Below, piece after piece: positions 2,850-39,962 of a stretch of DNA of 40,910 nucleotides; the first letter of the stretch is position 1; every line of letters begins with the position of its first letter. Source of the stretch: a virus; the IMG/VR virus record IMGVR_UViG_3300042923_001574, positions 1 to 40,910 of that record; one strand, given 5' to 3'. The notes below the pieces were generated by a model. It had not been told where the DNA came from, did not search any database, and saw nothing but the letters and a program-made list of their open reading frames with translations. Position numbers and translations under genes: made by a program.

Positions 2850-2898
2850 TGGCGACCGCGGCTGGGCTCGAACCAGCGACCTGCCGCTTAGAAGGCGG
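2850..2898 (-). tRNA. 3' half of tRNA-Arg(UCU): prophage attachment site (att core)
   Basis: Read on the minus strand, the segment contains a tRNA anticodon arm, variable loop, T arm, acceptor 3' strand and CCA. The 7-base loop CTTCTAA gives anticodon TCT; the T arm is GCTGG-TTCGAGC-CCAGC; the acceptor strand is CGCGGTC plus discriminator G and CCA. No D arm or 5' acceptor strand follows. The outermost anticodon-stem pair (at 2899) is mismatched, marking where identity with the true tRNA probably ends. It is thus the tRNA remnant left by site-specific integration; the complete tRNA should lie at the far end of the prophage. The integrase gene abuts and overlaps it. Confidence 0.88.
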
Positions 2899-13112: not shown

Positions 13113-13883
13113 CTACCTCGTCGTAAAGCGACCCGCATACCGCCCAATTATACGCACTTCGTCAGCATTCTGCTCATATGAAGAGTATTTTTCATTTTCC
13201 GGAATCAATCGAAGGCGCACAGGGCTGCTATTTGCGACTATCTCAATTCGCTTGATGGTTATGCCATCGCCTTCCCAAAGCGCAAAGATGCCCGGCATGC
13301 TCGGGTTAATCTTGGTTTCGTCGATGAAGACGAAATCGCCATCCATGATGCGCGGCTCCATCGAATCGCCGGTGCACTCGACGATATGAATGCGACGGGA
13401 TGGCGCGCGCAGCGTCCGCTGGGCGACGAACTCTGGCAAACGCCAAGTGCCTAGGACGTTCGCCGCGCCGATGGTGTTCCCGTTCTGCTCAAAGGCAACT
13501 TGCGGCGCATCGAGCGCAAGGCCCGCGCCCAGATTCGCGTCGAGGTGAGCTATCTCCCCCTCGGCAAGGCCGCTGCGCAAGCCTCCAGCAGCAACAGCCT
13601 GAACCCCTTCATCTGCACGTTCCGGACGCGCGTCGGGATCGAACGATGAGATCAGCGGCGGGCGCTCGCCTTCCAGAAGAAAGGCAACCGAGCTCTTGAA
13701 TGCCTTGGCATATTTTGCCGCGTCGTTCGCATAGCCATTCTGGCCGTTTTCATGGGCCGCATAAGTAGACGGAACCCAGCCGAATCGGGCGGCTGCATCC
13801 GCGGCCGTTTCGAACCCCGCCTCCTCCCGCGCTCTGCGCAGTCGAGCGGCCCTAGCGGCTTTATCCTGCTGACTTTTTGCCAT
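13113..13883 (-). CDS. CI/LexA-type prophage repressor (HTH + S24 peptidase)
   Basis: 256 residues. An N-terminal HTH (~12-60; ARLRRAREEAGFETAADAAA, STYAAHENGQNGY) binds DNA. The C-terminal half is a LexA-like S24 autopeptidase with Ser174 (CTGDSMEPRIMDGDFVF) and Lys211 (GDGITIKRIE); the Ser-Lys spacing of 37 equals that of LexA. Self-cleavage on DNA damage would induce the prophage. Candidate Ala-Gly cleavage points are Ala99-Gly100 or Ala120-Gly121, so the exact site is uncertain. It should bind the four ACAYGATTTRTGT-like sites at 12685-12721 and 13907-13944. Divergent from the Cro-like gene. Confidence 0.93.
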   Translation of the reverse strand: MAKSQQDKAARAARLRRAREEAGFETAADAAARFGWVPSTYAAHENGQNGYANDAAKYAKAFKSSVAFLLEGERPPLISSFDPDARPERADEGVQAVAAGGLRSGLAEGEIAHLDANLGAGLALDAPQVAFEQNGNTIGAANVLGTWRLPEFVAQRTLRAPSRRIHIVECTGDSMEPRIMDGDFVFIDETKINPSMPGIFALWEGDGITIKRIEIVANSSPVRLRLIPENEKYSSYEQNADEVRIIGRYAGRFTTR

Positions 13884-22326: not shown

Positions 22327-22517
22327 CGCATTTCCGCCCGGTGGTCGATGGATCGCGGGCGGGGGTGCCGAGCCCCTCGCCCCGCCTCGGTGGCGGCGGC
22401 GGCGCCTCCCCCGGCCTCGCGGCCGACCCCCACCCCCCTTGCGGGTCCTTCCCGGCCTCCCCCCGTATGCGGGCGGCGAGAGCGCGAACGTTCGCTAGCC
22501 GGACCATCGTAAAGCGG

Positions 22518-22560
22518 GGTTAACGAGATTAACGATGACCGATCAATCGGTTAACGATGG
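22518..22560 (+). repeat. Three TTAACGA repeats at the terminase start
   Basis: GGTTAACGA (22518-22526), ATTAACGATG (22528-22537, containing the terminase ATG) and GGTTAACGATGG (22549-22560) repeat within 43 bp, clearly AT-richer than the flanks. In lambda the small-terminase binding sites lie just upstream of its gene, so these may be packaging or regulatory sites. Unproven. Confidence 0.45.
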
Positions 22561-24547
22561 TCTTTGGCTGTCGCTGACGGATCTTGCGCAGGCGCGCGGC
22601 GTCTCCAAGCCGGCGATCTCGCAGAACCTGAGGAAGTGGAAGGACCGCGGCGTCACCATCCCGACCCGGATGGAAGGCCGGACGCTGCTGATCAACGTGG
22701 CGGCCTATGACGCAGCCCGCGGCGAGGTCGGCAATCCCGCCTATGGGCAGGAGCCGGAGCGCGACGAGCCGGGCACCAAGCCGGGCACCGATCCGGTGTT
22801 CTCCCGCGAGCAGGCACGCGAGAAGGCCTACTCGGCCGACATGAAGAAGCTGCAGCTCGCCCGCGAGCTGCGCACCACCGTCGCCATCGACCGGCTGGAA
22901 GATGAAATCACTCGCGTGCTGGAGCCCATCGTGAAGGCAATCGACCGGCTGCCAGGGATGGCGGAGGACGTCGCCGCCGCCATCTCGCAGAACGGGGTAC
23001 AGGGCGTGCGCGTGGCGCTCAAGACCGCGGCCACCGATCTGCGCAATCAGGTCGCGGACGGATTGGCCGCCCTCGCCTCCGAGCTCCGAGCCGAGCCCCG
23101 GCGCGGCCTCGACGATTTTGACCCGACCGGAGCAACCGAGCCGCCGCCAATCACGGCCCGGCAGGAGAGCTTTCTGCAGACCGGCGAGTGGAAGCGCGCC
23201 AGCATCTCGACGCCGACCATCAAAGGCTCGTCGCGCATCTGGTCGAGGTACGAGGCCGGCGACCAGCGGCGTTGGCATGTGCGCTGCCCCGGCTGCTCGG
23301 AAGAATTCGTCTTCGAGTTCGGCCCGTTCTTTCGGCACGAGGCCGAGTTCCCCTACCGCGCCCATTATGTGGCGCCTTGCTGCGGGACGGTGATCGAGGG
23401 TGTGCAGAAGAACAGCCTGGTGCGCCGCGGTCGCTGGATCGCGACATCGCCCGGGCCGGGCAAGCACCCGAGCTATCATTTCGACGCGCTGTCCTCGCCG
23501 TTCGTGCCATGGGACGTCATCGCCAAGCGCTTTCTCGACGCCGGCGACGATCCGTCAAAGCTGAAGACGTTCTACAACCTGACGCTCGGCCTGCCCTTCG
23601 AGATCCGCGGTGACGCGCCCGACCATGTTCGGCTGATGGCGCTGCGCGAGGAGTATCCGCGCGGACGCATCCCGCCCCTCGGCCTCTTGCTGACGGCAGC
23701 GGCCGACGTGCAGGGCAACGGAATCTATGTCGAGGTGCTGGCGCACGCTCCGAACCGCGCGAGTTGGCCAATCGAGGCGACGTTCCTCGACGGCGACACG
23801 TCGGACCCGAAGGGCGGGGCCTTCGCCAAGCTGGACGAGTTCTATGAGCGTGCGTGGCCGGATGCGTTCGGCAAACGCCGACGGGTCGACGCCTTCGGGG
23901 TGGATTCAGGCTACCGCTCGCATGTTGTCTATAGCTGGGTACGCGGTCGCCCCGGCGCCTTCGCATTGAAGGGCGAGGATGGATGGACCCGACCGCCGCT
24001 CGGCACGCCGCAGCCGGTCGACATCGATCTCAACGGCCAGAAGATCAAGCACGGCGCGGTCGTTTGGGCCGTCGGCACCTGGTCGCTGAAGGCCGTTTTC
24101 TATGCGGATCTGCGAAAGCAGCGTCTTGCCGAAGGGGCCGAAGTCGAGCCCGTCGGCGCCTGCCATTTCGGCACGTGGCAGGACACTGTCTATTTCGAGC
24201 AGATCACCAACGAATATCTGGCCGACGAGAAGTTCAAGGGCCGGCTGCGCAAGGTGTGGAAGCCACGCGGGCCGAACCACTTCCTCGACTGCCGGATCTA
24301 CAATCTGGCGCTGGCCGAATATCTCGGCCTCTCCCGCATGACGGCCGACGATTGGGCCGTGCTGGCGCGCGATCGCGGCGTGCCGGAGGAGATGCGCACC
24401 AGCGACCTGTTCTCGCCGCCGAGCGTGCAACTCGTCGCGGCCCCCACGCCGAGCGCTCCGCGTGCGCCGGAGATTACCGAGACCGAAGAGACCGACGACG
24501 CGACGAGCGGCGACGGGTGGCTCGACGGCTATTCGATCAACTTCTGA
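22535..24547 (+). CDS. Terminase: small subunit fused to the nuclease part of a GpA-type large subunit, ATPase missing
   Basis: 670 residues. Residues ~1-190 are a Nu1-like small terminase subunit: winged HTH (LTDLAQARGVSKPAISQNLR, then IPTRMEGRTLLINVAAYDAA) and a helical oligomerisation part. From ~210 onward it is a GpA-family large subunit, entering at GEWKRASISTPTIKGSSRIW, then a Cys-pair zinc-binding region (CPGC ... CCGT) and the nuclease with Asp ~390 (AAADVQ), ~456 (GVDSG) and ~584 (NHFLDC). The ~200-residue ATPase domain with Walker A and B that should precede STPTIKG is absent. Packaging is therefore probably defective unless another ATPase is supplied. Confidence 0.88.
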   Translation: MTDQSVNDGLWLSLTDLAQARGVSKPAISQNLRKWKDRGVTIPTRMEGRTLLINVAAYDAARGEVGNPAYGQEPERDEPGTKPGTDPVFSREQAREKAYSADMKKLQLARELRTTVAIDRLEDEITRVLEPIVKAIDRLPGMAEDVAAAISQNGVQGVRVALKTAATDLRNQVADGLAALASELRAEPRRGLDDFDPTGATEPPPITARQESFLQTGEWKRASISTPTIKGSSRIWSRYEAGDQRRWHVRCPGCSEEFVFEFGPFFRHEAEFPYRAHYVAPCCGTVIEGVQKNSLVRRGRWIATSPGPGKHPSYHFDALSSPFVPWDVIAKRFLDAGDDPSKLKTFYNLTLGLPFEIRGDAPDHVRLMALREEYPRGRIPPLGLLLTAAADVQGNGIYVEVLAHAPNRASWPIEATFLDGDTSDPKGGAFAKLDEFYERAWPDAFGKRRRVDAFGVDSGYRSHVVYSWVRGRPGAFALKGEDGWTRPPLGTPQPVDIDLNGQKIKHGAVVWAVGTWSLKAVFYADLRKQRLAEGAEVEPVGACHFGTWQDTVYFEQITNEYLADEKFKGRLRKVWKPRGPNHFLDCRIYNLALAEYLGLSRMTADDWAVLARDRGVPEEMRTSDLFSPPSVQLVAAPTPSAPRAPEITETEETDDATSGDGWLDGYSINF

Positions 24548-24554
24548 GGTTCCG

Positions 24555-24770
24555 ATGGCGACCAGTCTGACGCAGGCCGATGTCGACCGGCTGGAACAGG
24601 CGATCGTGTCCGGCGAGCTGCGCGTGCGCTTCTCCGACGGTCGCGAGATCACTTACCAGTCGACCGAGGCAATGCTGCGCGCGGTCGCTTACGCGAAGCA
24701 GCAGATAGCCGAAGGCTCCGGCCTTGCGACCGCTACGCCGTCCACCTTCGCCGTCTTCGAGCGGGACTGA
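24555..24770 (+). CDS. gpW-like head-tail joining protein
   Basis: 71 residues (TQADVDRLEQAIVSGELRVR, then FSDGREITYQSTEAMLRAVA) match the small gpW/head-tail connector family that lies between terminase and portal genes in lambda-like phages. GAGG 6 bases ahead of the ATG. It plugs the portal after packaging. Confidence 0.9.
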   Translation: MATSLTQADVDRLEQAIVSGELRVRFSDGREITYQSTEAMLRAVAYAKQQIAEGSGLATATPSTFAVFERD

Positions 24771-24772
24771 GC

Positions 24773-26311
24773 ATGCTAGAGCTCAACCTGATCGAGCGCG
24801 CGCTGGCCTCACTCGCGCCGGAATGGGGTGTTCGCCGGCTTCACGCAAAGGCCTCGCTTGCCTCCGCAGCTGAACTGGCCCGCAGCTTCGACGCTGCCCG
24901 TCGTGACCGCCGCACGCAGGGCTGGCGCGCCACGGGCGGCTCCCCGAATGCGGAGATCGCCCCGGCGCTCGACCTGGTGCGCCGCCGCTCGCGCGACCTT
25001 GTGCGCAACAATGAGTGGGCCGGCAACTTCAAGCGCAAGCTGGTCGCGCACATGGTCGGCACCGGCATCGTCGCGCGCCCGCCGCGTGATGCCAGCAAGG
25101 CTGCGAAGAAGCGCAGTCGCGAGGCTTGGAATGCCTTCGTAGAGAACGCCGATCCGGCCGGCATGGCCGATTTCTACGGCATCCAGGCGCAGCTGGCCGG
25201 CGAAGTGGTCGAGGGCGGCGCCGCTTTCGTCCGCTGGTATCTGCGTCCGAGCGAATGGGGCCTGAAGGTGCCGCTCCAGTGCGAGGTGCTTCCGCATGAG
25301 CATCTCGACACGCGCAAGACCGAGCGTCGGGGCAACAACGTCGTGATCAACGGCGTGGAGTTCGACCCTTGGGGCCGCCGCGCAGCCTACTGGCTGTTTC
25401 CGCAGCACCCTGGCGACGTGTTGTCTCTGTCGCGGACGCGCAACCTGTCGGAGCGGGTTCCGGCAAGCGAATGCGACCATGTGTTCCGCGTCGACCTAGC
25501 CGGCCAGGTGACGGGGGTGCCGTGGCTCGCCTCTTCCGCGCTGCGCCTGCGCGACGGCGGGGATTACGAGGAAGCGGAGATCATCCGCAAGAAAATCGGC
25601 GCCTGCATGACGGTGTTCGTGCGTCGCAATGCGATGAACCCGCACACGCTCGCGCAGGCTACGGGCCAGGCGGTCGATCCGAAGTCCGGCAAGCGCATTG
25701 AAAAGCTCTCGCCGGGCCTGATCACCTATCTCGGCGACGGCGAGGAAATCGCAGCCGTGACGCCGCCGGACAGTGGTGATTACGGCACGTTCATGGATCG
25801 GCAGATGCTCGCCGCCGCTGCCGGCGTCGGCCTGCCCTACGCCATCGCCACGGGCGACCTGACCAAGGCCAACTTTGCCGGACAGCGCGAGGGCAAGCTC
25901 GACTTCTGGCAGGTGCTCGACCAGTGGCAGTGGCTGATGCTGGTGCCGCAGGTGTGCCGCCCGGCATGGCGCCGCGTCATGCGCGCCAGCGTCGGCGCCG
26001 GCATGGCCCTGCCGCGCGACCTCTCGGCCGAATGGACCATGCCGAAGCGGCCTTGGGTCGACCCGCTGAAGGACGTGAAGGCGGAGGAGGCCGAACTCGC
26101 CCTCGGCCTTGATAGCTGGGTCGAAAAGGTCGCGGCGCGCGGCTTCGACCCCGAGGACCATCTCGCCGAGATCACCGCATGGCGAAAGAAGCTCGAAGCC
26201 GCCGGCGTCCGCTTCGCCCCGGCGCCGGGCATCCCGGCCCCTGCCCGCCCCGCCGGCGACGGGCCGAACAGCGACAAGGAAAAGGAAGATGGACCCGACG
26301 CCGATCAATGA
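24773..26311 (+). CDS. Portal protein, lambda gpB family
   Basis: 512 residues. Typical blocks: ALDLVRRRSRDLVRNNEWAG (N-terminal), QLAGEVVEGGAAFVRW, HRINAE-like VEFDPWGRRAAYWLF, HVFRVDLAGQVTGVPWLA, DYGTFMDRQMLAAAAGVGLP and NFAGQREGKLDFWQVLDQWQ. It forms the dodecameric channel at the capsid vertex through which DNA is packaged and ejected. The C-terminal ~40 residues are Pro/Ala-rich. Starts 2 bases past the gpW stop; its end overlaps the protease-capsid gene. Confidence 0.95.
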   Translation: MLELNLIERALASLAPEWGVRRLHAKASLASAAELARSFDAARRDRRTQGWRATGGSPNAEIAPALDLVRRRSRDLVRNNEWAGNFKRKLVAHMVGTGIVARPPRDASKAAKKRSREAWNAFVENADPAGMADFYGIQAQLAGEVVEGGAAFVRWYLRPSEWGLKVPLQCEVLPHEHLDTRKTERRGNNVVINGVEFDPWGRRAAYWLFPQHPGDVLSLSRTRNLSERVPASECDHVFRVDLAGQVTGVPWLASSALRLRDGGDYEEAEIIRKKIGACMTVFVRRNAMNPHTLAQATGQAVDPKSGKRIEKLSPGLITYLGDGEEIAAVTPPDSGDYGTFMDRQMLAAAAGVGLPYAIATGDLTKANFAGQREGKLDFWQVLDQWQWLMLVPQVCRPAWRRVMRASVGAGMALPRDLSAEWTMPKRPWVDPLKDVKAEEAELALGLDSWVEKVAARGFDPEDHLAEITAWRKKLEAAGVRFAPAPGIPAPARPAGDGPNSDKEKEDGPDADQ

Positions 26312-28328
26312 GAGGCCGGCACAGGGCGTGTCGGCTGGTGACATCGCAACCCTGCCGATGCAGCGCCTGCAGGCTCCGATCGTAGAGGGCTCGGTTCGCG
26401 CAGAAGCCCGAACGGTCGACGTTGTGTTTACTACCGGCGCCAGTGTCAGGCGGCGTCGGTGGATCGGCTGGGATGATCACGTCGACTTCGACGAAATCCT
26501 TGTCGTTTCGCGTGAAGCCGTGAACCTCGAGCGCTTCGAGCGTGGGGGGCCGGTTCTCGACAGCCACAATACGTGGTCGACGCGTGCGCAGATCGCGGTC
26601 GTCGAGCGCGCATGGATCGAGAATGGCCGTGGCTACGCGACCATTCGCTTTCCCACCGCGGGCATCGACCCTGAAGCGGATCGGTTCTTCGCGCTCGTCC
26701 AGGACAAGCAACGGCAGAACATTTCCGTTGGCTACTCGATCGACGAGGTTCGCATCGAGCGCGGCGAGCGCCGCGACGAGATCGAGAAGTGGTTCGTAGA
26801 GCGTTGGACGCCTTACGAAATCAGCTTCGTGACTGTGGGCGCCGACGCGCGCGCGCAGGTTCGCAGCATGGCGGGCAGCGATGCCCCCAAGTTCCCCTTG
26901 AGCTTCAACCGGGCAACGCCCACCACCAGTGAGGTCCCCATGACCACGCCGATCCCGGCGGGCAGCGAGCCCGCGCCGACCACCACCCGCTCCGAGCCGC
27001 CGGCGCCCGCGCCGGTGGTTACGCCGCCGTCGCCGCTGCCGGCAGAGGAGCACGCCTGGCGGGCCGCTGATATCACCAAGCTGCAGCAGCGCTCCGAGGC
27101 CTTTGGCCTGACCGCCGCGGAGGCGATTACCGTGATGGGCCAGCATCGCACCCTCGAGGCTGCGACCGACGCGCTGCAGAACCTCGCGGCGACCCGTAAC
27201 GCGCCGCGCCAGCAGCCGCATATCCAGATCGTCACCGATGAGGGCGACACGCTTCGCTCGGCGGTGGAGAATGTGGTGGCCGCCCGTGCCAACCCGCAGG
27301 CGACCAAGCTCACCGACGCCGGGCGCCAGTATCGCGGCATGTCGCTGATGGAACTGGGCCGCACCTTCGTCGAGGAATCGCAGGGCGTGCGCCTGCGCAA
27401 TCTCGGCAAGATGGAGATGGCCAGCGTCCTGCTCGGCCTGACGCGCGCCGCGGGCATGCAGTCGACGTCGGACTTCCCCAACATCCTGGCGAATGTCGCC
27501 GGCAAGCGTCTGCGCGACAGCTATCAGGAGGCGCCGCGGCTCTGGAAGCTGATCTCCCGCCAGTCCAATGCCCCCGACTTCAAGGAGAAGGTCGTTGTGC
27601 AGCTGGCGGGCATCCCGGAGCTGCAGAAGGTTCGCGAAGGTGGCGAGTACACCTATGCCAAGCTGGGCGAGTCGGCGGAGAAATACTCCATCGCCACTTA
27701 TGGCCGCATCATCGCCATCACCCGGCAGGTGATCATCAACGACGATCTCGGCGCCTTCGACCGCCTGCCGGCGCTGTTCGGCCGTGCGGCGGCCGAGCTC
27801 GAGAATGATCTGGTGTGGGGCATCCTGGTGTCGAATCCGGTCATGGCGGATGGCATCCCGCTGTTCCATGCCGATCACGGCAACCTCGCCGCCGCCGGCG
27901 CGGCGCCTTCGGAGACCACCTTCGAGGCCGCGGAGACGGCTCTCGGCGACCAGAAGGATGCTGCGAGCAAGCCGCTGAACCTGTCCTTCAGCTACTTCGT
28001 CGGCCCGCAGAAGTATTCGGTGGCGGTGAAGAAGCTCCTCACCTCGGTGCAGGCGACCAAGACCGGCGACGTCAACGTGTACCAGAACGCGGTCGAGCCG
28101 ATCATCGAGAACCGCCTGAAGCCGGCGGCGGGCGCTGCGCCGTGGTTCATGTCGGTCGATCCCGGCAGGTGGGACACGATCGAGTATTCGTACCTCGAGG
28201 GCGAGGAAGGCCTCTACACCGAGGAGCGCATCGGCTTCGAAGTGGATGGCGTCGAGGTCAAGGGCCGTCTCGACTTCGGCGCCAAGGCCATCGATTTCCG
28301 CGGCCTCTACAAGAACCCGGGTATCTGA
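26289..28328 (+). CDS. Prohead protease/major capsid protein fusion
   Basis: 679 residues from an ATG with GGAAG. Residues ~30-205 are an HK97-type (S78) prohead protease with His93 (VLDSHNTWS) and Ser146 (NISVGYSIDEV). A Pro/Thr-rich linker (~215-260) and a helical scaffold-like part (~260-370) lead to the major capsid domain (~380-679; GKMEMASVLLGLTRAAGMQS, then LWKLISRQSNAPDF, VRQVIINDDLG-like ITRQVIINDDLGAF, then GIPLFHADHGNLA). The protease should cut itself and scaffold off the capsid protein during head maturation. An in-frame ATG at 26940 with GAGG upstream may give the capsid part alone. Confidence 0.93.
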   Translation: MDPTPINERPAQGVSAGDIATLPMQRLQAPIVEGSVRAEARTVDVVFTTGASVRRRRWIGWDDHVDFDEILVVSREAVNLERFERGGPVLDSHNTWSTRAQIAVVERAWIENGRGYATIRFPTAGIDPEADRFFALVQDKQRQNISVGYSIDEVRIERGERRDEIEKWFVERWTPYEISFVTVGADARAQVRSMAGSDAPKFPLSFNRATPTTSEVPMTTPIPAGSEPAPTTTRSEPPAPAPVVTPPSPLPAEEHAWRAADITKLQQRSEAFGLTAAEAITVMGQHRTLEAATDALQNLAATRNAPRQQPHIQIVTDEGDTLRSAVENVVAARANPQATKLTDAGRQYRGMSLMELGRTFVEESQGVRLRNLGKMEMASVLLGLTRAAGMQSTSDFPNILANVAGKRLRDSYQEAPRLWKLISRQSNAPDFKEKVVVQLAGIPELQKVREGGEYTYAKLGESAEKYSIATYGRIIAITRQVIINDDLGAFDRLPALFGRAAAELENDLVWGILVSNPVMADGIPLFHADHGNLAAAGAAPSETTFEAAETALGDQKDAASKPLNLSFSYFVGPQKYSVAVKKLLTSVQATKTGDVNVYQNAVEPIIENRLKPAAGAAPWFMSVDPGRWDTIEYSYLEGEEGLYTEERIGFEVDGVEVKGRLDFGAKAIDFRGLYKNPGI

Positions 28329-28344
28329 CCGGCAGCGTGCGCGA

Positions 28345-28367
28345 GCCCCGGCGCCTGACGCCGGGGC
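28345..28367 (+). terminator. Hairpin after the capsid gene
   Basis: GCCCCGGCG and CGCCGGGGC form a 9-bp perfect stem with loop CCTGA. The tail GTTCCTC has few T, so it likely lowers rather than blocks read-through, or stabilises the highly expressed capsid mRNA. Confidence 0.5.
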
Positions 28368-28418
28368 GTTCCTCAGCAACATAGCGGCCGAGGCCGCCCG
28401 TTTCTTCGGAGACCTCCC

Positions 28419-28769
28419 ATGAACAACTTCGTGAAACATGGTGACATCGTCACCATGAAGGCCCCGTACAATGTCGCCTCCGGTGGCGGTGCGCAGGTCG
28501 GCCAGCTTTTCGGTGTCACCGTCGCAACCGTCGCCTATCAGGATGACGGCGAGTTCAAGACCACCGGCATCTTCGACCTCACCAAGATCGGTTCGCAGGC
28601 CTGGGCGGTCGGCGACCTCGTCTATTGGGACAACACCAACAAGCGCTGCACCACCGTCGCCACCGGCAACCTGCTGATCGGCGCCGCCATGGCCGCCGTC
28701 ACCAATGCCGCCGGCAACACGGTCGGCCAGGTCCGGCTCAACGGCGTCGCTCGGCCGAACGAAGCCTGA
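28419..28769 (+). CDS. DUF2190 family capsid-associated protein
   Basis: 116 residues of beta-rich DUF2190: NFVKHGDIVTMKAPYNVASG, QVGQLFGVTVATVAYQDDGE and WAVGDLVYWDNTNKRCTTVA. These proteins coat or stabilise the capsid, replacing lambda gpD by position, right after the major capsid gene. GGAG precedes the ATG. Confidence 0.9.
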   Translation: MNNFVKHGDIVTMKAPYNVASGGGAQVGQLFGVTVATVAYQDDGEFKTTGIFDLTKIGSQAWAVGDLVYWDNTNKRCTTVATGNLLIGAAMAAVTNAAGNTVGQVRLNGVARPNEA

Positions 28770-28774
28770 TCCTG

Positions 28775-29089
28775 ATGAACGCCTTCGCCCGCGCCCTCGA
28801 CCGGCTCTTCGCCCATCGCGACCTGTCGCATGCAGCGCTGTATCGGCCGCAGGGCGCGGGCGACGGGGTGCCGTGCCGGGTGATCAAGCGGCAGCCGGAC
28901 GAACTGTCCGACTTCGGCGGATCCCCGATGGTGCGAGCCACCACGCTGATTGACGTGCGCGTGGTTGAAGTGGCGAAGCCGCGAGAGGGCGACACCTTCG
29001 ATCTCGCCGGCGACGTCTATAGCGTCCTCGGCGTGCCGCGGCGCGATGCCGATCGGCTGACGTGGACCTGCGGTTGCCGGGGCGGATGA
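28775..29089 (+). CDS. Head-tail adaptor, lambda gpFII-like
   Basis: 104 residues starting MNAFARALDRLFAHRDLSHA, with a beta-rich body (RATTLIDVRVVEVAKPREGD, then YSVLGVPRRDAD). Size, order and fold pattern match the gpFII-like neck protein that joins head to tail. The frame is open upstream but that part lies within the preceding gene. The stop overlaps the next ATG. Confidence 0.75.
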   Translation: MNAFARALDRLFAHRDLSHAALYRPQGAGDGVPCRVIKRQPDELSDFGGSPMVRATTLIDVRVVEVAKPREGDTFDLAGDVYSVLGVPRRDADRLTWTCGCRGG

Positions 29090-29772
29090 TCGTCTCCCCC
29101 TCCGTCACCATCGAGGGTGACCTGCGGCAGATCATGGCGGCGGAGCTCGGCATTGCCGAGACGGCGGTCACGCGGGGCATCCGTGCCGGCTCCGACGGGC
29201 TGAAGGGCGAACTGCGTCAGCAGGTGCTCGGCGCCGGCATGAGCCAGCGCCTCGCCAACACCTGGCGCTCGGAAACCTACCCGCGTGGCGGCACCAGCCT
29301 GCGGGCCGCGGGCCTCATATTCACGCGGGCTCCCGATCTCATCGACGCCTTCAACCGTGGCGTAACGATCCGCTCGCCCAACGGCTTCTATCTCGCCATT
29401 CCGACACCGGCGGCAGGCAAGTTCGGCTTTGCCCGGCAATCCTCACCCGAGAGCGGCCAGAAGCTGGAGAGGCTCACGCCCGGCGGCTGGGAACGGCGCA
29501 CCGGCATGAAGCTGCGCTTCGTGTTCCGGCCGGGCAAGCGCGTGTCGTTCCTCGTCGCCGACAATGTGCGCGTCGGCGCCGGCGGCATCGCCCGCGCGAA
29601 CACCGTGACGCGTAAGGGGAACAAGGCCACCCGGCTCACGGGCCGCACCACGGCGGTGATTTTCTGGCTGGTGCCGCAGGTGAAGCTCGCCAAGCGTCTT
29701 GATGTGGAAGGTGCAGCGCGCAACTGGTCGGCGAAGCTGCCCGACCTGATCGTCAACTTCTGGCGGGACTAG
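29086..29772 (+). CDS. DUF6441 family tail protein
   Basis: 228 residues, from the ATG that overlaps the adaptor stop (ATGA); an ATG at 29062 is also in frame. Segments LRAAGLIFTRAPDLIDAFNR, PNGFYLAIPTPAAGK and AVIFWLVPQVKLAKRLDVEG are typical of the DUF6441 proteins in alphaproteobacterial siphophages; by position it corresponds to the gpZ-type tail completion protein. The exact role is inferred. Confidence 0.75.
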   Translation: MIVSPSVTIEGDLRQIMAAELGIAETAVTRGIRAGSDGLKGELRQQVLGAGMSQRLANTWRSETYPRGGTSLRAAGLIFTRAPDLIDAFNRGVTIRSPNGFYLAIPTPAAGKFGFARQSSPESGQKLERLTPGGWERRTGMKLRFVFRPGKRVSFLVADNVRVGAGGIARANTVTRKGNKATRLTGRTTAVIFWLVPQVKLAKRLDVEGAARNWSAKLPDLIVNFWRD

Positions 29773-29777
29773 CGGAT

Positions 29778-30209
29778 ATGAGCCGACGTGAGATCGCGCT
29801 GGCGGCGCTGAAGGCGACGCTCGCCGCGGCGCTGACCGGCGCCGACGTGAAGCGCAACGCCGCCGTGCCGCAGGAAGCGGGGCCAGGTGGACTGGTGATC
29901 CTGCGCGATGGCGATCCCGGCGAACCCGAGGTGAGCCTCTCGCCGCCGCTCTACGCCTATGAGCATCGCGTTGATGCCGAGATCTATGCGGAAGCGGCGA
30001 CCGAAGCGCAGGCGCTGGCGATCCTCAACGCGATCCTCGACGACATCGACACGGCGCTCACCGCCGATCGAACCCTCGGCGGCACCGTCGACTATTGCGA
30101 GCCGACGGCTCCGACCACCGACACCGACACGCTTGAAGGCTCCGCGCCGATGCTGGCCGCGAGGCTCGGCATCACGCTGATCTACACCACCACCTCGCCG
30201 CTCGGCTGA
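29778..30209 (+). CDS. Tail terminator, gpU-like
   Basis: 143 residues: SRREIALAALKATLAAALTG, then PPLYAYEHRVDAEIYAEAAT and a C-terminal strand ARLGITLIYTT. The small alpha/beta layout and location between the gpZ-like and tail-tube genes fit the gpU-type tail terminator. Databases sometimes call such proteins 'acyl-CoA transferase', which I consider wrong here. Confidence 0.7.
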   Translation: MSRREIALAALKATLAAALTGADVKRNAAVPQEAGPGGLVILRDGDPGEPEVSLSPPLYAYEHRVDAEIYAEAATEAQALAILNAILDDIDTALTADRTLGGTVDYCEPTAPTTDTDTLEGSAPMLAARLGITLIYTTTSPLG

Positions 30210-30235
30210 GCGGCCCATCCCCTCAGGAGAGAGAC

Positions 30236-31177
30236 ATGGCACGCGCAAGGGGCATCAACGCCCGGCTGGCGGGCGTTATGGAGGCGACCTATGGCGTCGC
30301 TCCCGTCAACGGCTATCGCCTGCTGCCGTTCATCAGCACGACGCTCGGCGGGGAACAGGGGCTGATCGCCGACGACCTGCTCGGCACCGGGCGCGACCCG
30401 CTGGCGCCGAGTCGCGACGTGATCAACGTCACCGGCGACGTGGTGGTGCCGGTCGACGTGCGGAACTTCGGCTTCTGGCTGAAGCTGCTGCTTGGCGCGC
30501 CGACCACCACTGCGGACACGGACGTGTACACGCATGAATTCACCTCGGCGAAGGCCAGCCTGCCGAGCGCCTCGCTCGAGATCGGACATCCCGAGGTGCC
30601 GGCCTATGCGATGAACAAGGGCGCGCTCGCCAACACGCTCGCCATCCGCATGCAGCGCTCCGGTACGGCGCAGGCGACCATCGGGCTGATCGCGCAGAGC
30701 GAACTCCCCAACGGCGCCAGCGGCGCCGGCTCGCCGACCGAACTGGAAGTGGTGCGATTCAACCAGTTCCAGGGCTCCGTGAAGCGTGACGGCGTCGCCA
30801 TGGCCAATGTCGTCTCAGCCGACCTCACCTATTCCAACAATTACGAGCTGGTCGAGGTGATCCGCAGCGACGGCCTGATCGCCGGCGGCGACCCGGGCAA
30901 GGCGTCATTCACCGCCTCAGTGACGGTGCGCTTCGACAGCCTTGACCTCTACAACCTGGCGGTCGCTGGCACGCCGGTAGACCTCGAATTCGGCTTCACC
31001 CTCGACGCCGAGAACAGCCTCACCTTCGCGCTGCCGGCGATGCATCTGCCGCGGGCGAAGCGGCCCGTTACCGGCCCCGCCGGCGTGCAGGCGACCTTCG
31101 CCCTGCAGGCGGCGCGGCCGGCGCCGGGCGAGGAGATGCTGACCGCCACTCTCGTCAACGATGTCGCCAGCTATTGA
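30236..31177 (+). CDS. Tail tube protein
   Basis: 313 residues, beta-rich: ARGINARLAGVMEATYGVAP at the N-terminus, DVRNFGFWLKLLLGAPTTTA, YTHEFTSAKASLPSASLEIG and repeated strands to the end. This is the major tail tube protein of alphaproteobacterial siphophages, equivalent to lambda gpV. AGGAGAGAG precedes the ATG. Confidence 0.88.
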   Translation: MARARGINARLAGVMEATYGVAPVNGYRLLPFISTTLGGEQGLIADDLLGTGRDPLAPSRDVINVTGDVVVPVDVRNFGFWLKLLLGAPTTTADTDVYTHEFTSAKASLPSASLEIGHPEVPAYAMNKGALANTLAIRMQRSGTAQATIGLIAQSELPNGASGAGSPTELEVVRFNQFQGSVKRDGVAMANVVSADLTYSNNYELVEVIRSDGLIAGGDPGKASFTASVTVRFDSLDLYNLAVAGTPVDLEFGFTLDAENSLTFALPAMHLPRAKRPVTGPAGVQATFALQAARPAPGEEMLTATLVNDVASY

Positions 31178-31184
31178 GGCCGCG

Positions 31185-31634
31185 ATGTACCGTCTCGATC
31201 TGAAACGCCTGCCCTACTGGGTCCCTCTCGGCCTGGGTGTGAAGGTGGAAGTACTCCCCTTCGGCACCGAGGTGGAGCTTCGCTCCCGCGACCTGCCGGA
31301 GGAGCTTCGCGCCGAGATGAACGGCGACACGGCGGTGAAGTCCCTCGCCGTGATCAAGGCCTTCGGCCGCGCCGCCATCATCGGCTGGTCCGGCCTCGAT
31401 GTGGACGGGCGCGAGGAAAAGGGGCCGTGGCCAGAGGGAATCGACGCCCTGCTGAGCACGTCGCCCTTCGGCGCGGCCTTCTCCCGCGAATATGTCGGGC
31501 CGGCGCTCCTGGCGGTGTCGGAAAAAAACGCATCCGCGCCCTCGCCGGCTGGCACTTCGGCGACGGGCGCAGCTACTGCGCCGCCTGCCCCGGGCGCTGC
31601 GCCGAGTGCCCCTCCCGGGTCGAAACCCCACTGA
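31185..31634 (+). CDS. Tail assembly chaperone, G-like (unshifted product)
   Basis: 149 residues from an ATG with GAGG. The first ~110 residues (YRLDLKRLPYWVPLGLGVKV, TEVELRSRDLPEELRAEM, AVIKAFGRAAIIGWSGLDVD) are the folded chaperone. After a slippery A-AAA-AAC site at 31523 the zero frame continues only as a Pro/Ala-rich tail (SEKNASAPSPAG...) to its stop. It coats the tape measure during tail assembly. A -1 frameshift would give a 222-residue GT-type protein. Confidence 0.85.
   Translation: MYRLDLKRLPYWVPLGLGVKVEVLPFGTEVELRSRDLPEELRAEMNGDTAVKSLAVIKAFGRAAIIGWSGLDVDGREEKGPWPEGIDALLSTSPFGAAFSREYVGPALLAVSEKNASAPSPAGTSATGAATAPPAPGAAPSAPPGSKPH
31523..31529 (+). other. Programmed -1 frameshift heptamer A-AAA-AAC
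   Basis: In the chaperone frame the codons read GAA AAA AAC, so the last seven bases form the canonical X-XXY-YYZ site. After slipping, reading continues in the frame that stays open to 31852. A perfect 7-bp hairpin (GGCGCAG-CTA-CTGCGCC, 31566-31582) lies downstream and may help, though 36 bases is longer than usual. Confidence 0.82.
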
Positions 31635-31852
31635 GCTTGGACGGCTTCCTGTTCTGGGAGGCCTTCCGGGCAGGCGAGCACCAGCTGCGGATCGCCGGCA
31701 CCTTGCCGATCGGCTTCGACTTTCCGGCCATCGCCGCGCTGGCGCGGGCAAAGGGCTGCCCCAGCGCGGCCGCCTCCTACTTCTTCGACGCGGCGGAAGA
31801 CGCCGCACTTGCCGCCATCCATGACAAGCTGAGGGACCGCGACGATGGCTGA
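31523..31852 (+). CDS. T-like extension of the tail chaperone (made by -1 frameshift)
   Basis: About 107 residues past the slip (RIRALAGWHFGDGRSYCAAC, then PGRCAEC, then LDGFLFWEAFRAGEHQLRIA...). There is no start codon or ribosome site near its beginning, so it is expected only as a fusion to the G-like protein. It contains CAACPGRCAEC, four Cys spaced as in a zinc-binding knuckle. It ends by overlapping the tape-measure ATG, as gpGT does in lambda. Confidence 0.8.
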   Translation, partial: KKRIRALAGWHFGDGRSYCAACPGRCAECPSRVETPLSLDGFLFWEAFRAGEHQLRIAGTLPIGFDFPAIAALARAKGCPSAAASYFFDAAEDAALAAIHDKLRDRDDG

Positions 31853-33899
31853 GCGCAACGTCAATGTGCGCCTGCAGGTGATCGACGGCGGCAAGGTGAA
31901 GGCCGAGCTTGCCAGTGTCGGCGAGGTCGGCGCCGTGGCGCTCGATCGCCTGCAGCAGCGGTCGCAGCAGGCGGCAGCCGCCGTCAACCAGCTGCGCACG
32001 CATGAGGTGACCAATCTCACGGCGCAGCTGACGGATCTCGGCGTGCAGGTGCTGTCGGGTCAGTCCTTCGGCATGGCCATGATCCAGCAGGGCCCGCAGA
32101 TCGCCGCCGTGCTGGGCGAGCGCGGCGTGAAGGCCTCGCTTCTCGGCGTCGGCGCGGCACTGGCCTCCCTCGTCACGCCGACGACCGCGGTGCTCGCCGG
32201 CATCGTCGCGCTCGGCTACGGCGCATCCTTCGTCTTCGATGCGATGTCGGACGATACCGAGGATGCGTCGAAAGCGCTGGAGAGGCATCAGGATATCCTG
32301 CGCCTCGTCGCCGAGCGCTATGGCGACGTTGAGAAGGCGGCGAAAAAGGCCGTCACAGAGCAACAGCGTCAGGTCGATCTAGCCCTGGCCGAGGCGAATG
32401 CCCGATCCCAAAGCAACCAATATTCGCAGGCTGCGGGCGCGTTCGCCGACACGCTGAGCCCCAGCCTCATCCGCGGCATCGGGCAGGTGTATGGCGGCAA
32501 TGTCGGGAATTCGTACTTCGCCGCGCCGATCGAAGCCTTTCTGAAGTCGGTGCGCGACGGTGTCCCGGATATCGAGGCCTTTCGCGCCGAAGTCGCCCGG
32601 ATGATGAACGAGGCCGACGATCCTGCCATCAAGGATCTCGGCGCCGACCTTCTCGATGGTTCAAGCGCGGCGTCCAAGTTCGCTCAAGGTATGAGCGATG
32701 CGTCGCTGGCGGTACGCACCATCGGCAGCGATATTCAGTTCTCCGCCGAGCAGCTGAAAACCTTCAAGAAGACGCTCGAAGATTGGGCGAAAGCCGAAGA
32801 GATCATCGCCAATATCGAGCGATCCGCCTCGACCGTGGGTGACGATCGCCAGCGTGCGATCGACGCTGTTCTCGGGCGCTTGCCGGATAACGCCACCTCA
32901 GATCAGCGCGACCGCGCCGCCGCCGCCGCGGCGACCGAGTATGACCGGCTGCAGGCACAGCGCGCGCAGGAGAAAGCCGCTCGGGAGGCGGCATCTGAAG
33001 CGCAGCGCGACGAAAACCGGCTGGTGAGCGAAGCCAAGCGCATCTACGAGTCCACCCGTACCGCCAGCGAAGCCTATGCCGACACGCTGGCGAAGTTGCA
33101 GGAGCACCTCGAGGCCGGGCGGATCGACCAGGAGACCTATAACCGCGCGGTCGCGGCGGCGGCGGAGGTGATGGAGGAAGCGAACCGGCAGGCGCTGGAA
33201 AGCGCCACCGACGCCGCCTCCGGCTATCAGCGCTTCGTCGAGGATTACCTGAAGTCGGCGCAGGACATGGCGAGCGCGACCGAGGATCTGATGGTGGACG
33301 CCTTCGGCGCCGCCGAGGACGCCTTCGTGGACTTCGTCATGACCGGCAAGGCGGAGTTCAGCGACCTCGTCAACACCATCATCGCCGACCTCGCTCGGCT
33401 GGCGTTCCGGCAGGCGGCGTCCGGCCTGCTCAGCAGCGGCGGCGACATTCTCGGCAACCTCGTCACCGGGCTCGTCGGCAGCATCGCCGGCGGTCTCGCC
33501 AGCCCGGGGGCTGGCGGCGTCGAGAGCTACTTCGTTCCGGGCTACGCGAACAACAACTCCTATGGCGGCCCGCGTGCCTATGGCGGCGCGGTGAAGCAAG
33601 GCTTCGACTACTGGGTCGGGGAGAACGGGCCGGAGAAGTTCACCGCGCCGCGCGACGGCTACATCGTGCCGAACAGCGCGGTGCAGGGGCAGGCGCCGCG
33701 GGTGCAGGTGATCGTCAACACGCTTCCGGGGCAGACCGCCGACGTGGTGCAGAGGCAGCGGCCGGATGGCGTGACCGAGATCGAGGCCACGGTACGTCGC
33801 ATCGCATCCGACGAGATATCGAGCCAGCTTTCCGAGGGCGGCGACGCGGCGACTGTCCTTGAACGCCGCTATGGCCTGCGCCGCGGGGACCTCGGTTGA
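31845..33899 (+). CDS. Tail tape measure protein
   Basis: 684 residues. Starts AERNVNVRLQVIDGGKVKAE, with a coiled-coil (~20-70), a hydrophobic segment (~105-145; LLGVGAALASLVTPTTAVLA), a long charged helical middle with Ala/Glu-rich heptads (~320-480) and a second Gly-rich hydrophobic part (~535-560). This is the tape measure layout. Rough proportion to lambda (853 residues, ~135 nm) suggests a tail near 100 nm (inference). The ATG overlaps the chaperone extension by 8 bases. Confidence 0.92.
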   Translation: MAERNVNVRLQVIDGGKVKAELASVGEVGAVALDRLQQRSQQAAAAVNQLRTHEVTNLTAQLTDLGVQVLSGQSFGMAMIQQGPQIAAVLGERGVKASLLGVGAALASLVTPTTAVLAGIVALGYGASFVFDAMSDDTEDASKALERHQDILRLVAERYGDVEKAAKKAVTEQQRQVDLALAEANARSQSNQYSQAAGAFADTLSPSLIRGIGQVYGGNVGNSYFAAPIEAFLKSVRDGVPDIEAFRAEVARMMNEADDPAIKDLGADLLDGSSAASKFAQGMSDASLAVRTIGSDIQFSAEQLKTFKKTLEDWAKAEEIIANIERSASTVGDDRQRAIDAVLGRLPDNATSDQRDRAAAAAATEYDRLQAQRAQEKAAREAASEAQRDENRLVSEAKRIYESTRTASEAYADTLAKLQEHLEAGRIDQETYNRAVAAAAEVMEEANRQALESATDAASGYQRFVEDYLKSAQDMASATEDLMVDAFGAAEDAFVDFVMTGKAEFSDLVNTIIADLARLAFRQAASGLLSSGGDILGNLVTGLVGSIAGGLASPGAGGVESYFVPGYANNNSYGGPRAYGGAVKQGFDYWVGENGPEKFTAPRDGYIVPNSAVQGQAPRVQVIVNTLPGQTADVVQRQRPDGVTEIEATVRRIASDEISSQLSEGGDAATVLERRYGLRRGDLG

Positions 33900-34297
33900 T
33901 GGCATACGCGTCCTGGCCTGTGGCGCTTCCCTTCGAGTGCGAGGCGGCGGCGTTCACCCGCCGCCCCTATCGCGAGATGCTCGAAACCGAGATGGAGGGC
34001 GGCAATTCCCGGCTGCGCTTCCGCCCCGGCGACAATGTCGAGACGGTGACGTGGGCACGGCGTTTCACCGCCGACCAGTATGCGGCGTGGCGGTCGTTCC
34101 TGTCCGGCACGATCGCCCGGGGAACGGCCCGCTTCCTCATGCCGATCTGGAACGGCGCGGCCTATGAGGTCCGTGTCGTGCAGATCGTCGGGGGCGGCGG
34201 TGGCGTTTCCGAGGCGGTGACGGGTCGCGGGCTCTACACCCGGGTAAGCTTCTCGCTGCTGGTGCTGCCCGCCGAACTCGTGCCGGTGTCGCCGTGA
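33899..34297 (+). CDS. Minor tail protein, hypothetical
   Basis: 132 residues from an ATG overlapping the tape-measure stop (TGATG). Contains RPYREMLETEMEGGNSRLRF, VTWARRFTADQYAAWRSFLS and a C-terminal strand. Similar small beta-rich proteins lie just after the tape measure in siphophages and form the distal tail (gpM/gpL positions). Family not recognised with certainty. Confidence 0.65.
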   Translation: MAYASWPVALPFECEAAAFTRRPYREMLETEMEGGNSRLRFRPGDNVETVTWARRFTADQYAAWRSFLSGTIARGTARFLMPIWNGAAYEVRVVQIVGGGGGVSEAVTGRGLYTRVSFSLLVLPAELVPVSP

Positions 34298-34830
34298 GCG
34301 TGCCGCACAACGCGGCGTGGGAGGAGGCGGAAGCCAACAGCACCACGGACTTCGACGTCTTCGTCACGCTTGAGCTTCAGCACCCGGCGATTCAGGACGA
34401 AGAGGGCAATGAAGTGCCGGCACGCCTAGTGCATGACGTCATGCCCCGCTCGCTCGGCATTGAGCCGGGCGGGCTGTTCAATCCCGGCCAGATGGCGACC
34501 TTCGAGCCGGCGGCCTTCACCTCGCCCTTCGCCGAGCTCTCGCAGGGGCAGATTCCGCAGGCGCCGATCGCCATCGACAACGTCGCGCGAGAGCTGACCG
34601 CCTATCTCGAGGCGGCCGTCGGCTACAATGCCGACCTCAAGGCGATCTATCGCGAGTACCGCGACGATGATCCTTCCGAGCCGATCTATGGACCGGTGGA
34701 GTTCCTGATCTCCAAGGCGAAGGTGGTCGGCAGCTCCGTGACCGGAGCGGCCTCTCTGTCGAACCTCGGCAACAAGAAGTTCCCGCGCAATGTCTACACC
34801 CGCGCCGCTTTCGCCGGGCTGGTGCGATGA
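34294..34830 (+). CDS. DUF1833 family tail protein
   Basis: 178 residues from a GTG overlapping the previous stop. AWEEAEANSTTDFDVFVTLE at the N-terminus and the middle IDNVARELTAYLEAAVGYNA are DUF1833 features; the family sits at the position of lambda gpL (tail tip). Function is structural by context. Confidence 0.82.
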   Translation: MSVPHNAAWEEAEANSTTDFDVFVTLELQHPAIQDEEGNEVPARLVHDVMPRSLGIEPGGLFNPGQMATFEPAAFTSPFAELSQGQIPQAPIAIDNVARELTAYLEAAVGYNADLKAIYREYRDDDPSEPIYGPVEFLISKAKVVGSSVTGAASLSNLGNKKFPRNVYTRAAFAGLVR

Positions 34831-35243
34831 CGGATCGCAGCGCCTTCCTCGCCGGCCTCGTCGGTCGGCGCTGGTCGCCGGACTATTCCTGCTGGCACCA
34901 CGCGAAGCTGATCGAGCGCGAACTGTTCGGCCGCGACCTTCCGGACGTCGTCCTGCCAGAGCATCCCGGCTGGCGCTGGATGATCGAGACCATAGAAGGC
35001 CATCCGGAGCGCCAGAGGTGGCGTGAGGCCGTGCCGCCGGCTCCGGGCTTGATCAGTGCCGCCGACGGCGCGCTGGTCGCCATGGGGCGTGCTGACCGCG
35101 CCGCGCATATCGGCGTGTGGCTCGCCCCCGAACGCATCGTTTCCCATTGCGACGAGGGCTCCGGCTCTCGCTTCGATCCGGTCCCCGCCCTGCGCATGCA
35201 GGGCTGGGGGCGCATCCGCTTCTTCGAGCCCGTAACGGACTGA
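34827..35243 (+). CDS. NlpC/P60-like tail-tip protein (DUF6950)
   Basis: 138 residues. WSPDYSCWHHAKLIERELFG has the Cys expected in NlpC/P60 peptidases, and RAAHIGVWLAPERIVSHCDE carries the His. This is the DUF6950 family, equivalent by position to lambda gpK, a tail-tip peptidoglycan hydrolase that may help DNA cross the cell wall. Overlaps the DUF1833 gene by 4 bases. Confidence 0.8.
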   Translation: MTDRSAFLAGLVGRRWSPDYSCWHHAKLIERELFGRDLPDVVLPEHPGWRWMIETIEGHPERQRWREAVPPAPGLISAADGALVAMGRADRAAHIGVWLAPERIVSHCDEGSGSRFDPVPALRMQGWGRIRFFEPVTD

Positions 35244-35249
35244 TCCTCC

Positions 35250-38200
35250 ATGGCCGCTGTTGCCTACCTGCCGGTGCTGCACATCGCACTGCCGGGGATC
35301 GAACTCGCGCGCGCTCTGCCGCGCCGCAACGAGACGATCACCAGCTTCCTGCGCCGCACCGGCTGGAACACCACCACCCTGCCGACGATCTGCCTCGTCG
35401 ACGGCGAGCCGGTGCTACGGGCGAACTGGAACTCGCGCCGCATCCGCAAGGGTTCGGCCGTCGAGTTCCTGTCCCGCCCGCGTGGCGGCGGCCTGACGCA
35501 GAACTCCATCGCCGGGCTCGTCGGAGTCATCGCCCTGTCCGCCTTCGCGCCATGGGCTGGCGGTGCGCTGTTCGGCGCCGGGACGGTGGCGGCCAAGGTC
35601 GCCGCCGGCGCGATCATGGTCGGCGGCGGCTTCCTCATCAACACGCTGATGGCGGTGAAGCCGGGTGGCAGCCAGGCCGAGCCCGACCCGATTTATAGTT
35701 GGGGAACCGGCCTCAACCTCGCCCGCCCGCTGGAGCCGATTCCGTCCTGCTACGGCCGGCGCAAGCGCGTGCTCGACAAGGCCGCACCGGAATGGTCGAG
35801 CTATGAGGGGAACGACCAGTACATCCATGTCCTGCTGTCACGTGGCGAGGGCCGGCTCCAGCCCGAACAGATCCTGATCGAGGATACGCCGCTGTGGACC
35901 AGCGGCACCGGCGTGAACCCGCAGTTCAGCGGCGTGCAGATCGCCTTCTACAATCCCGGCCAGCAGGTGACGCTGTTCCCGGTGAACGTCGAATCCTCTG
36001 CCGAGGTGAGCGGGCAGGAACTCGACTTCCCGGCATGGACCGGCGGCTTCATCGCCAACGCCGCCGGCACGCAGGCGACGCGCCTCGTCGTCGACCTGTC
36101 CATGCCGAACGGCTGCGGCCTGCAGAATGACGCGGGCGTGCTCACCCCGCATTTCGTGCCGGTGATGATGCAGTACCGGCCGGTCGACGCCGCCGGCAAC
36201 GAGCTCGGCGACTGGACGTCGGTCGGGCCGTTCCCGAACGTGCCGCTGTGCTCGAAGTCGCCGCTGCGCTTCAGCCTCGCCGCCGAGGTGCCCGCCGGGC
36301 GCTACAAGGTGCGGGTGCGGCGCACCACGCCGCGGGCCACCGACACCAACATCGTCGACCAGATCAATTGGGCGGAGATGCGCGCCTTCCTGACCGGGCC
36401 GCAGAGCTTCCCGGTCTCGACGATCGCCATCCGCGCCAAGGCCACCGACCAGTTCTCCGGCGATGCGCTCTCCCGCCTTTCCGAGGTGGCGACGCGCATC
36501 CTGCCCGTGTGGAACGGCTCGGCCTGGGTGGAGCAGCCGACCCGCTCGCCGGCCTGGGCGGCGCTCGATATCGTCACCAACACGAGCTATGGCGGCAGCC
36601 TGCCGCTGTCCCGGCTGGACTTTCAGGCTTTCGTCGATCTCGCGGCGACCTGCGCCGCGCGGGGCGACACGTTCGACCATGACTTTGCCGCCACGGTTCC
36701 GGTGCCGCAGGCGCTCGATACCGCGCTCTCGGCCTGCCGCGCCAAGCATGTGTGGATGGCCGGCACGCTGTCGCTGGTGCGCGAGCAGTGGTCGAGCGTG
36801 CCGCGCATGCTCATCACCGACCAGGAGATCGTGCGCGGCTCGCTGGAGATCGAGTACCTGCTGCGGCCGACCGACGAGGCGCAGTGCGCCGTGCTCGAAT
36901 ATCTCGACGAGAGCACCTGGCAGCTGGCCGAGGCCGTGGCGCCGCGCTCCGCCAGCGAAGTGCAGATCGCCCGCGCGACAAGGCTGCAGCTGCCCATCGT
37001 GAAGCGGGCGCAGGCGCAGCGCGAGGTCGAGTTCCTGCTGCGTCAGAACCTCTATCGCCGGATCAATGTGCGGCTTACGACCGAGCATGACGGCCGGCTG
37101 CTCTATCTCGGCGCGCCGGTGCTTCTGCAGTCGGACCTGCCGCAGCAATGGGGCGCCTCCGGCAAGGTGACGCGCCGCGTCGGCAATGCGCTCTATCTGC
37201 ACGAAGCCCCGGCGTGGGTGGCCGGCCAGCACTACATCCTGATCCGCGACAAGCGCGGGCGGCCGTTCGGCCCGATCAAATGCGCGCGCGGCGCCAATGA
37301 CGGCATCGCCATCCTCGACGGCGCCGACCTCGCCATTGTGGAAGCGGCACAGGGCACGCTGAACGCCGCGCTGGAGCGCCCCGAGGGCGCCGAGCTTCCG
37401 AGCTTCGCCATCGGCCTCGGCACGACCTGGCAGCGCCGCTGCATCGTCACGCGGGCGGCGCCGGCCGGCGACCGGGTATCGCTGGAACTCTTCGTCGACG
37501 ACGCCCGCGCGCATGACGAGGATCTGACTGAGCCGCCGCCGCTGCCGGAAGCCACCACGCCGCGCAACCCGACCTTTCCGCAGCCCCTGCTGCTGAGCGC
37601 GCGCTTCATCGCCAATGAGGTGCCCTGCCGCATCGTGGCCGAGTGGGGGCCGGTGCCGGGCGCGGTGTTCTATGTCGCCCGCGTCTCCTATGACGAGGGA
37701 GAAAGCTGGACGCCGCTGCCGGACGTGCGGATGCCGAAGCTCTCGGCACAGGTGGAGCCGCTGGCGCTGCGGCTTGGCGTCGCTGCGGTGAACGCCAGCG
37801 GCAAGCAGGGGCCATGGGCCTATTACGATCTGGAACAGCCGACGACGCGCGCCGACAACGTGCAGATCGACGTCGACAACATGAGGCGCGGCATCCGCGA
37901 TCTCGTCACCCGCACCAATCAGGCGGCGATCGACGAGCTCGAGGCGAAGATGGGCCAGCTGGCGCTGCTCGTCGCCAGCCTCGATAGCGCGGTCTTCGAG
38001 GATCAGCAGAAGCAGTTCCGCGAACTGCAGTCGGTGACCGGCCGTGTGACGGCCGCGTACCGCGAGGAAATAACCGTCGCCACCGGGCCGACCTCCGCTC
38101 TGGCGCAGGCGATCACCGAGCTGCGGGCAGCGGTCGACAACTTCGAGGCCAACCTCTCAGTCAAGTGGGTGGCGGCGGCCTCGCCGATCGCCGGCGCCAT

Positions 38201-38564
38201 GTCGGCCTTCGAACTGTCGGTGACGGCGGCCGATGGGCTGCAGACGGCGCAGGGCGACGTGCAGATCGCCGCCTTCGCCGATGGTGCCGGTGGCGCCTAT
38301 TCGGTGTTCGCCATCACCGCCGACCGCCTGCTGGTGCGCCGGCGGGATAATGGCCAGGTGGTCGGGCTGCTGACCATCACCTCGCAGGGCATCTTCCTCA
38401 ATGGCGACCTGATCGCCGCCGGCACCATCACAGCGGAAATGCTCAATGTGGCCGAACTCTCGTCGATCATCGCCAATCTCGGCACGGTCGTCGCCGGCCG
38501 CCTGCGGTCGCAGAACGGCAAATACGACCACGTCCTCGGCGAATATGAGGACTGGATCTCCTGA
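35250..38564 (+). CDS. Tail tip host-specificity protein (TipJ/gpJ-like)
   Basis: 1104 residues. Residues ~1-75 are a small ubiquitin-like or gpI-like domain, followed by a hydrophobic stretch (~86-140; GLVGVIALSAFAPWAGGALF, then GAGTVAAKVAAGAIMVGGGF) like that of lambda gpI. The large middle (~150-860) is the hub with baseplate-type repeats and a fibronectin-like part (~775-860). The C-terminal ~240 residues hold coiled-coil and DUF1983-like trimer (TSALAQAITELRAAVDNFEA, GIFLNGDLIAAGTITAEMLN). It joins tail tip to fibres and decides receptor choice. In effect it fuses gpI-like and gpJ-like parts. Confidence 0.9.
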   Translation: MAAVAYLPVLHIALPGIELARALPRRNETITSFLRRTGWNTTTLPTICLVDGEPVLRANWNSRRIRKGSAVEFLSRPRGGGLTQNSIAGLVGVIALSAFAPWAGGALFGAGTVAAKVAAGAIMVGGGFLINTLMAVKPGGSQAEPDPIYSWGTGLNLARPLEPIPSCYGRRKRVLDKAAPEWSSYEGNDQYIHVLLSRGEGRLQPEQILIEDTPLWTSGTGVNPQFSGVQIAFYNPGQQVTLFPVNVESSAEVSGQELDFPAWTGGFIANAAGTQATRLVVDLSMPNGCGLQNDAGVLTPHFVPVMMQYRPVDAAGNELGDWTSVGPFPNVPLCSKSPLRFSLAAEVPAGRYKVRVRRTTPRATDTNIVDQINWAEMRAFLTGPQSFPVSTIAIRAKATDQFSGDALSRLSEVATRILPVWNGSAWVEQPTRSPAWAALDIVTNTSYGGSLPLSRLDFQAFVDLAATCAARGDTFDHDFAATVPVPQALDTALSACRAKHVWMAGTLSLVREQWSSVPRMLITDQEIVRGSLEIEYLLRPTDEAQCAVLEYLDESTWQLAEAVAPRSASEVQIARATRLQLPIVKRAQAQREVEFLLRQNLYRRINVRLTTEHDGRLLYLGAPVLLQSDLPQQWGASGKVTRRVGNALYLHEAPAWVAGQHYILIRDKRGRPFGPIKCARGANDGIAILDGADLAIVEAAQGTLNAALERPEGAELPSFAIGLGTTWQRRCIVTRAAPAGDRVSLELFVDDARAHDEDLTEPPPLPEATTPRNPTFPQPLLLSARFIANEVPCRIVAEWGPVPGAVFYVARVSYDEGESWTPLPDVRMPKLSAQVEPLALRLGVAAVNASGKQGPWAYYDLEQPTTRADNVQIDVDNMRRGIRDLVTRTNQAAIDELEAKMGQLALLVASLDSAVFEDQQKQFRELQSVTGRVTAAYREEITVATGPTSALAQAITELRAAVDNFEANLSVKWVAAASPIAGAMSAFELSVTAADGLQTAQGDVQIAAFADGAGGAYSVFAITADRLLVRRRDNGQVVGLLTITSQGIFLNGDLIAAGTITAEMLNVAELSSIIANLGTVVAGRLRSQNGKYDHVLGEYEDWIS

Positions 38565-39949: not shown

Positions 39950-39962
39950 AGCAGAGGTCAAC

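Follow-up and report, generated by a model that had tools for sequence, protein, structure and literature searches.

The prophage and its terminase gene

The stretch of DNA analyzed here (hereafter the window, 40,910 nt) is a temperate, lambda-type prophage, and its relatives indicate that the host is probably alphaproteobacterial. The left-hand genes encode an integrase, SSB, a DNA polymerase clamp-like protein, CI- and CII-like regulators, methyltransferases, a toxin-antitoxin pair and a primase/helicase. An acetyl-CoA hydrolase/transferase-family gene to the left of the integrase is probably chromosomal. The following features lie outside the terminase gene:

2888..4102, minus strand: tyrosine integrase of the prophage (annotation)
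13113..13883, minus strand: CI-like repressor (annotation)
17537-18140, minus strand: antitoxin and ribonuclease-toxin pair of the early region (annotation)
24555..40910, plus strand: late region with head-tail adaptor, portal, protease-capsid fusion, decoration, connectors, tail, tape measure, tip J and tail fiber (Pfam and PHROGs)
26289-28328: head maturation protease and major capsid protein as one fused gene (phrog_4523)

The fused protease-capsid gene is a known arrangement. Head and tail genes were found up to the contig end, which cuts the tail fiber gene; an earlier note on this DNA had likewise described the late region, terminase aside, as intact in appearance. No lysis genes were recognized within the window; these may sit past the contig end, so intactness cannot be claimed for the prophage as a whole, although the part present on the contig, terminase aside, looks intact. 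Bases 40701-40910, the final 210 of the window, are absent from contig C5 (40700 bases) of the genome, and a search of the remaining contigs did not recover them.

The terminase is encoded by a single gene, with these parts and a repeat cluster at its start:

22518..22557, plus strand: three GRTTAACGA repeats at the TerS start (motif count)
22535..24547, plus strand: fused TerS-TerL reading frame without the ATPase, 670 aa (ORF, Pfam, PHROGs and locus comparison)
22535..23143, plus strand: TerS part, residues 1 to about 203, with a winged-helix DNA-binding domain and a helical region, nearly complete to the proline-rich tail (phrog_57; tail alignment to the TerS of L013 and L057; low-confidence model)
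23141..23155, plus strand: junction, with about 590 nt missing relative to relatives (alignments; TerS-to-nuclease distance)
23153..23437, plus strand: GpA ATPase domain, C-terminal part after Walker B, profile positions 155-247 of 247 (Pfam)
23468..24340, plus strand: complete GpA nuclease domain (PF20454 at residues 312-602, profile positions 2-292 of 294)

TTAACGA occurs three times in the window, each time within the same 38 bp at the TerS start, compared with 0.8 occurrences expected over the window's full length. A near-inverted copy of the repeat lies at 22502-22516, placing the whole cluster within 22502-22562. The motif is not shared by the two relatives checked. The repeats are candidate cosB/TerS-binding iterons or an operator, and a role in TerS binding is a guess.

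Domain content, junction and the missing motor

The frame at 22535-24547 is unbroken over 670 aa. An open frame of such length says little by itself at 67% GC, and a chance fusion is ruled out by homology on both sides of the junction. In PHROGs, the TerS family phrog_57 matches residues 7-193 (E 2.5e-17) and the TerL family phrog_15 matches residues 208-666 (profile positions 528-981, E 2e-132). In Pfam, GpA_ATPase (PF05876, 247 positions) is matched from position 155 only, at residues 207-301, leaving positions 1-154 absent, and GpA_nuclease is complete (E 6e-64). The ORF, PHROGs and Pfam agree on the TerS-to-TerL-nuclease fusion proposed in the earlier note.

Both ends of the protein retain their expected domains. 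The N-terminal winged-helix DNA-binding domain of TerS is recovered by phrog_57 and by alignment, and all 37 near-invariant columns (conservation of 98% or more across about 100 relatives) are preserved in the nuclease half, in keeping with the earlier claim of intact nuclease Asp residues. A structure model has long helices and a start resembling a winged helix, but its confidence is low (mean pLDDT 43.8); a PDB sequence search returned no match. We considered whether a motor is hidden in the first 210 residues, an outcome that the earlier note had named as a possible refutation, and rejected this, as these residues are TerS by sequence and the low-confidence model contains no alpha/beta P-loop fold there.

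Alignment with intact relatives places the junction at about residues 203-207. The TerS side reaches EPRRGLDDFDPTGATEPP, matching the closest TerS tail EPRRPIEDFDPNPNPDPD, and the TerL side begins at about residue 205 with ITARQESFLQTGEWK, for which the counterpart in relatives is EARQESFLMSGEWK. MAFFT first paired DDFDPTG of the window with the DDLDGQG that follows Walker B; comparison with EDFDPNP in the closest TerS tail assigns DDFDPTG to TerS. The earlier note had TerL entered at STPTIKG near residue 200; the junction lies slightly upstream of that segment, and TerL begins about 15-20 residues before STPTIKG. The first 195-200 or so residues of TerL are missing from the fused protein, including Walker A (KSAQTGFTT in relatives) and Walker B (the DEIDEYPDDLDGQG region). 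The interval separating the TerS match from the nuclease match is 36 nt in the window and 599-1934 nt (median 627) in relatives, from which we estimate that about 590 nt are missing.

We searched for the missing motor in the window and in the host genome. A profile of the Walker A/B segment found nothing in the six frames of the window (best E 0.54) and no match in the 5.07-Mb draft genome, and the Pfam ATPase model recovered only the remnant in the fused gene. The same profile was positive in 7/7 relatives tested, which makes the negative result informative for the assembled sequence. We therefore reject a motor encoded elsewhere in the window or draft genome. The earlier note had reported the Walker A/B region absent here or nearby, and this now extends to the draft genome; its suggestion of looking for ATPase-bearing relatives in the host yielded no second GpA-family ATPase. 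Host terminases of other families, with different motors, are found on contigs C46, C17 (PF03354) and C65 (PF03237).

Related loci and the age of the loss

The comparison set of 121 related loci came from protein-guided scans and searches of whole genomes; it counts some contigs twice and contains 101 distinct nuclease sequences. In 109/121 loci, the upstream sequence sufficed for a judgment and a single ORF encodes both the full ATPase and the nuclease; a separate TerS lies upstream in 104 of these 109. The remaining loci are contigs ending inside the gene, frameshifted copies and one gene with an insertion inside the ATPase. None of the other related loci carries a TerS-TerL fusion, and a search of about 670 genomes from the family and order found an unbroken match over residues 1-670 only in the window's own genome. 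A search of the literature found no TerS-TerL fusions, which is weak evidence.

TerS and TerL are separate genes in L025, L022, L026 and Aurantimonas phage AmM-1, where TerL starts at or just past the TerS end, and relatives with a complete TerL share the gene order primase, gene, TerS, TerL, portal, protease/capsid. The nearest TerL proteins share about 65-67% identity with that of the window, which leaves only distant relatives from which to infer the ancestral sequence. A DNA search of 30 genomes of the genus found no near-identical intact copy. By its portal and capsid genes, the closest locus is L050 (portal 85%), the sequence of which starts inside the portal gene and so does not include its terminase.

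Two other kinds of altered terminase were seen among the relatives. In L154 (947-4078), a GpA-type TerL of 1044 aa has an insertion of about 370 aa directly after the Walker A segment; with its LAGLIDADG homology (PF14528) and apparent HN/T end, the insertion looks like an intein with a homing endonuclease. In L015 and L020 (genomes G190 and G178), the TerL frame is split in two, apparently by a frameshift, and these are apparently other decaying terminases or sequencing errors.

For the age of the event, we examined the nuclease half. With a root-to-tip distance of 1.49 it falls short of the median of 1.85, although its terminal branch, at 0.31, exceeds the median of 0.14 for want of a close relative in the tree. 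The loss of the motor looks recent, as the earlier note had ventured. These distances and the unbroken conserved columns fit a recent loss and also continued selection, and do not separate the two.

Origin of the fusion and comparison with known systems

We assign a probability of roughly 85% to the window being a packaging-defective temperate lambda-type prophage made by one deletion of about 590 nt. The element has a temperate integrase, a repressor and late genes, and the missing motor segment is a lesion in a gene essential for particles, from which a packaging defect is expected. Lambda-like TerS has a DNA-binding domain and binds TerL via its C-terminal part, while lambda-like TerL combines an N-terminal domain, comprising the TerS-binding site and the motor, with a C-terminal endonuclease domain (PMC9026076). 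A single deletion would have run from the last terS codons to just past the terL Walker B motif, with the reading frame kept by chance. The fused product would probably retain DNA binding through TerS, and its nuclease may fold; it would lack the ATP-binding motor and the N-terminal part of TerL that docks TerS. With motor and docking site gone and TerS covalently joined to the nuclease, packaging of the prophage's own DNA should fail. Domain content, alignment and locus distances all support the in-frame fusion through a deletion of about 0.6 kb that had been proposed beforehand. The domains, the lack of the motor segment, the conserved gene order and the single occurrence are observations, whereas a deletion as the cause, failed packaging and a recent date are inferred.

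An assembly artefact is an unlikely source of the fusion. In that case, the genome would have an intact terS-terL pair of which the assembly skipped about 590 bp, a fragment that could drop below the contig size filter of what is a 71-contig draft; versions of the sequence also differ at the contig end, with C5 stopping 210 bases short of the window. However, such an error needs the wrong joining of two flanks, and the TerS tail and post-Walker B TerL of relatives share no obvious stretch. The join is clean and in frame, and no stray ATPase fragment is present in the draft.

We think it very improbable that the element is a defective prophage mobilized by another phage's terminase that recognizes its cos. 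This has a precedent in prophage Sp4 (PMC2669165), the possible cosB repeats persist at the TerS start and the host has other prophage terminases, but the resident terminases belong to other families and a resident helper of the same family is unsupported. Satellite-like borrowing of a motor, the alternative offered in the earlier note, fails on the same absence of a second GpA-family ATPase in the draft genome and on the element's own replication, head and tail genes. Satellites of the PICI or P4 type have an incomplete capsid/tail set and need a helper; here the portal, protease-capsid, decoration, connector, tail, tape measure and tip genes are present.

Least probable of all, with only a very slim chance, is a selected chimera in which a covalent TerS-nuclease binds and cuts the cos of related phages without packaging and interferes with superinfection: the open frame, the conserved DNA-binding and nuclease halves and the adjoining candidate TerS-binding repeats are as they would be in a functional fusion, which would likewise look intact and in frame, but the fusion is a single occurrence with no counterpart in the loci and genomes searched, and 1/3 of random deletions keep the frame.

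Terminase genes are among those preferentially lost from incomplete prophages (PMC7744054). The lesion in the window is real, but it is an ordinary kind of prophage decay, and the fused terminase is no new kind of packaging system. As a probably packaging-defective prophage, the element offers a clean natural case of early decay, in which a small deletion removes the motor and leaves the remaining phage genes of the contig apparently unharmed. If this reading is confirmed, the induced strain should yield empty or tail-bearing particles, and the fusion would provide a ready-made TerS-nuclease with which to ask whether cos nicking works without a motor.

The closest known arrangement is the lambda-type Nu1/GpA terminase (PF20454, PF05876; phrog_57, phrog_15), for example genes 1-2 of Aurantimonas phage AmM-1, which has the same domains, order and neighbors. 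Its TerS and nuclease halves are clearly homologous to those of the window; AmM-1 encodes them in two genes, whereas the window has one fused gene without the TerS-docking region of TerL, Walker A or Walker B. PICI satellites that redirect a helper's TerL (PMC9026076) resemble the element in having a TerS-like function without a motor of their own, but they depend on helper particles, whereas the element encodes capsid and tail proteins itself. In Sp4 of E. coli O157 Sakai, nu1 is disrupted by an IS, yet the genome was still packaged; the most likely agent is the terminase of another prophage, with a cos that is nearly identical (PMC2669165). Sp4 and the window prophage have both kept many genes and have a broken terminase. 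Sp4 was hit by an IS insertion, whereas in the window a deletion fused both subunits and no same-family helper terminase was found in the host; the fusion is the same kind of event as the Sp4 lesion, reached by a different route.
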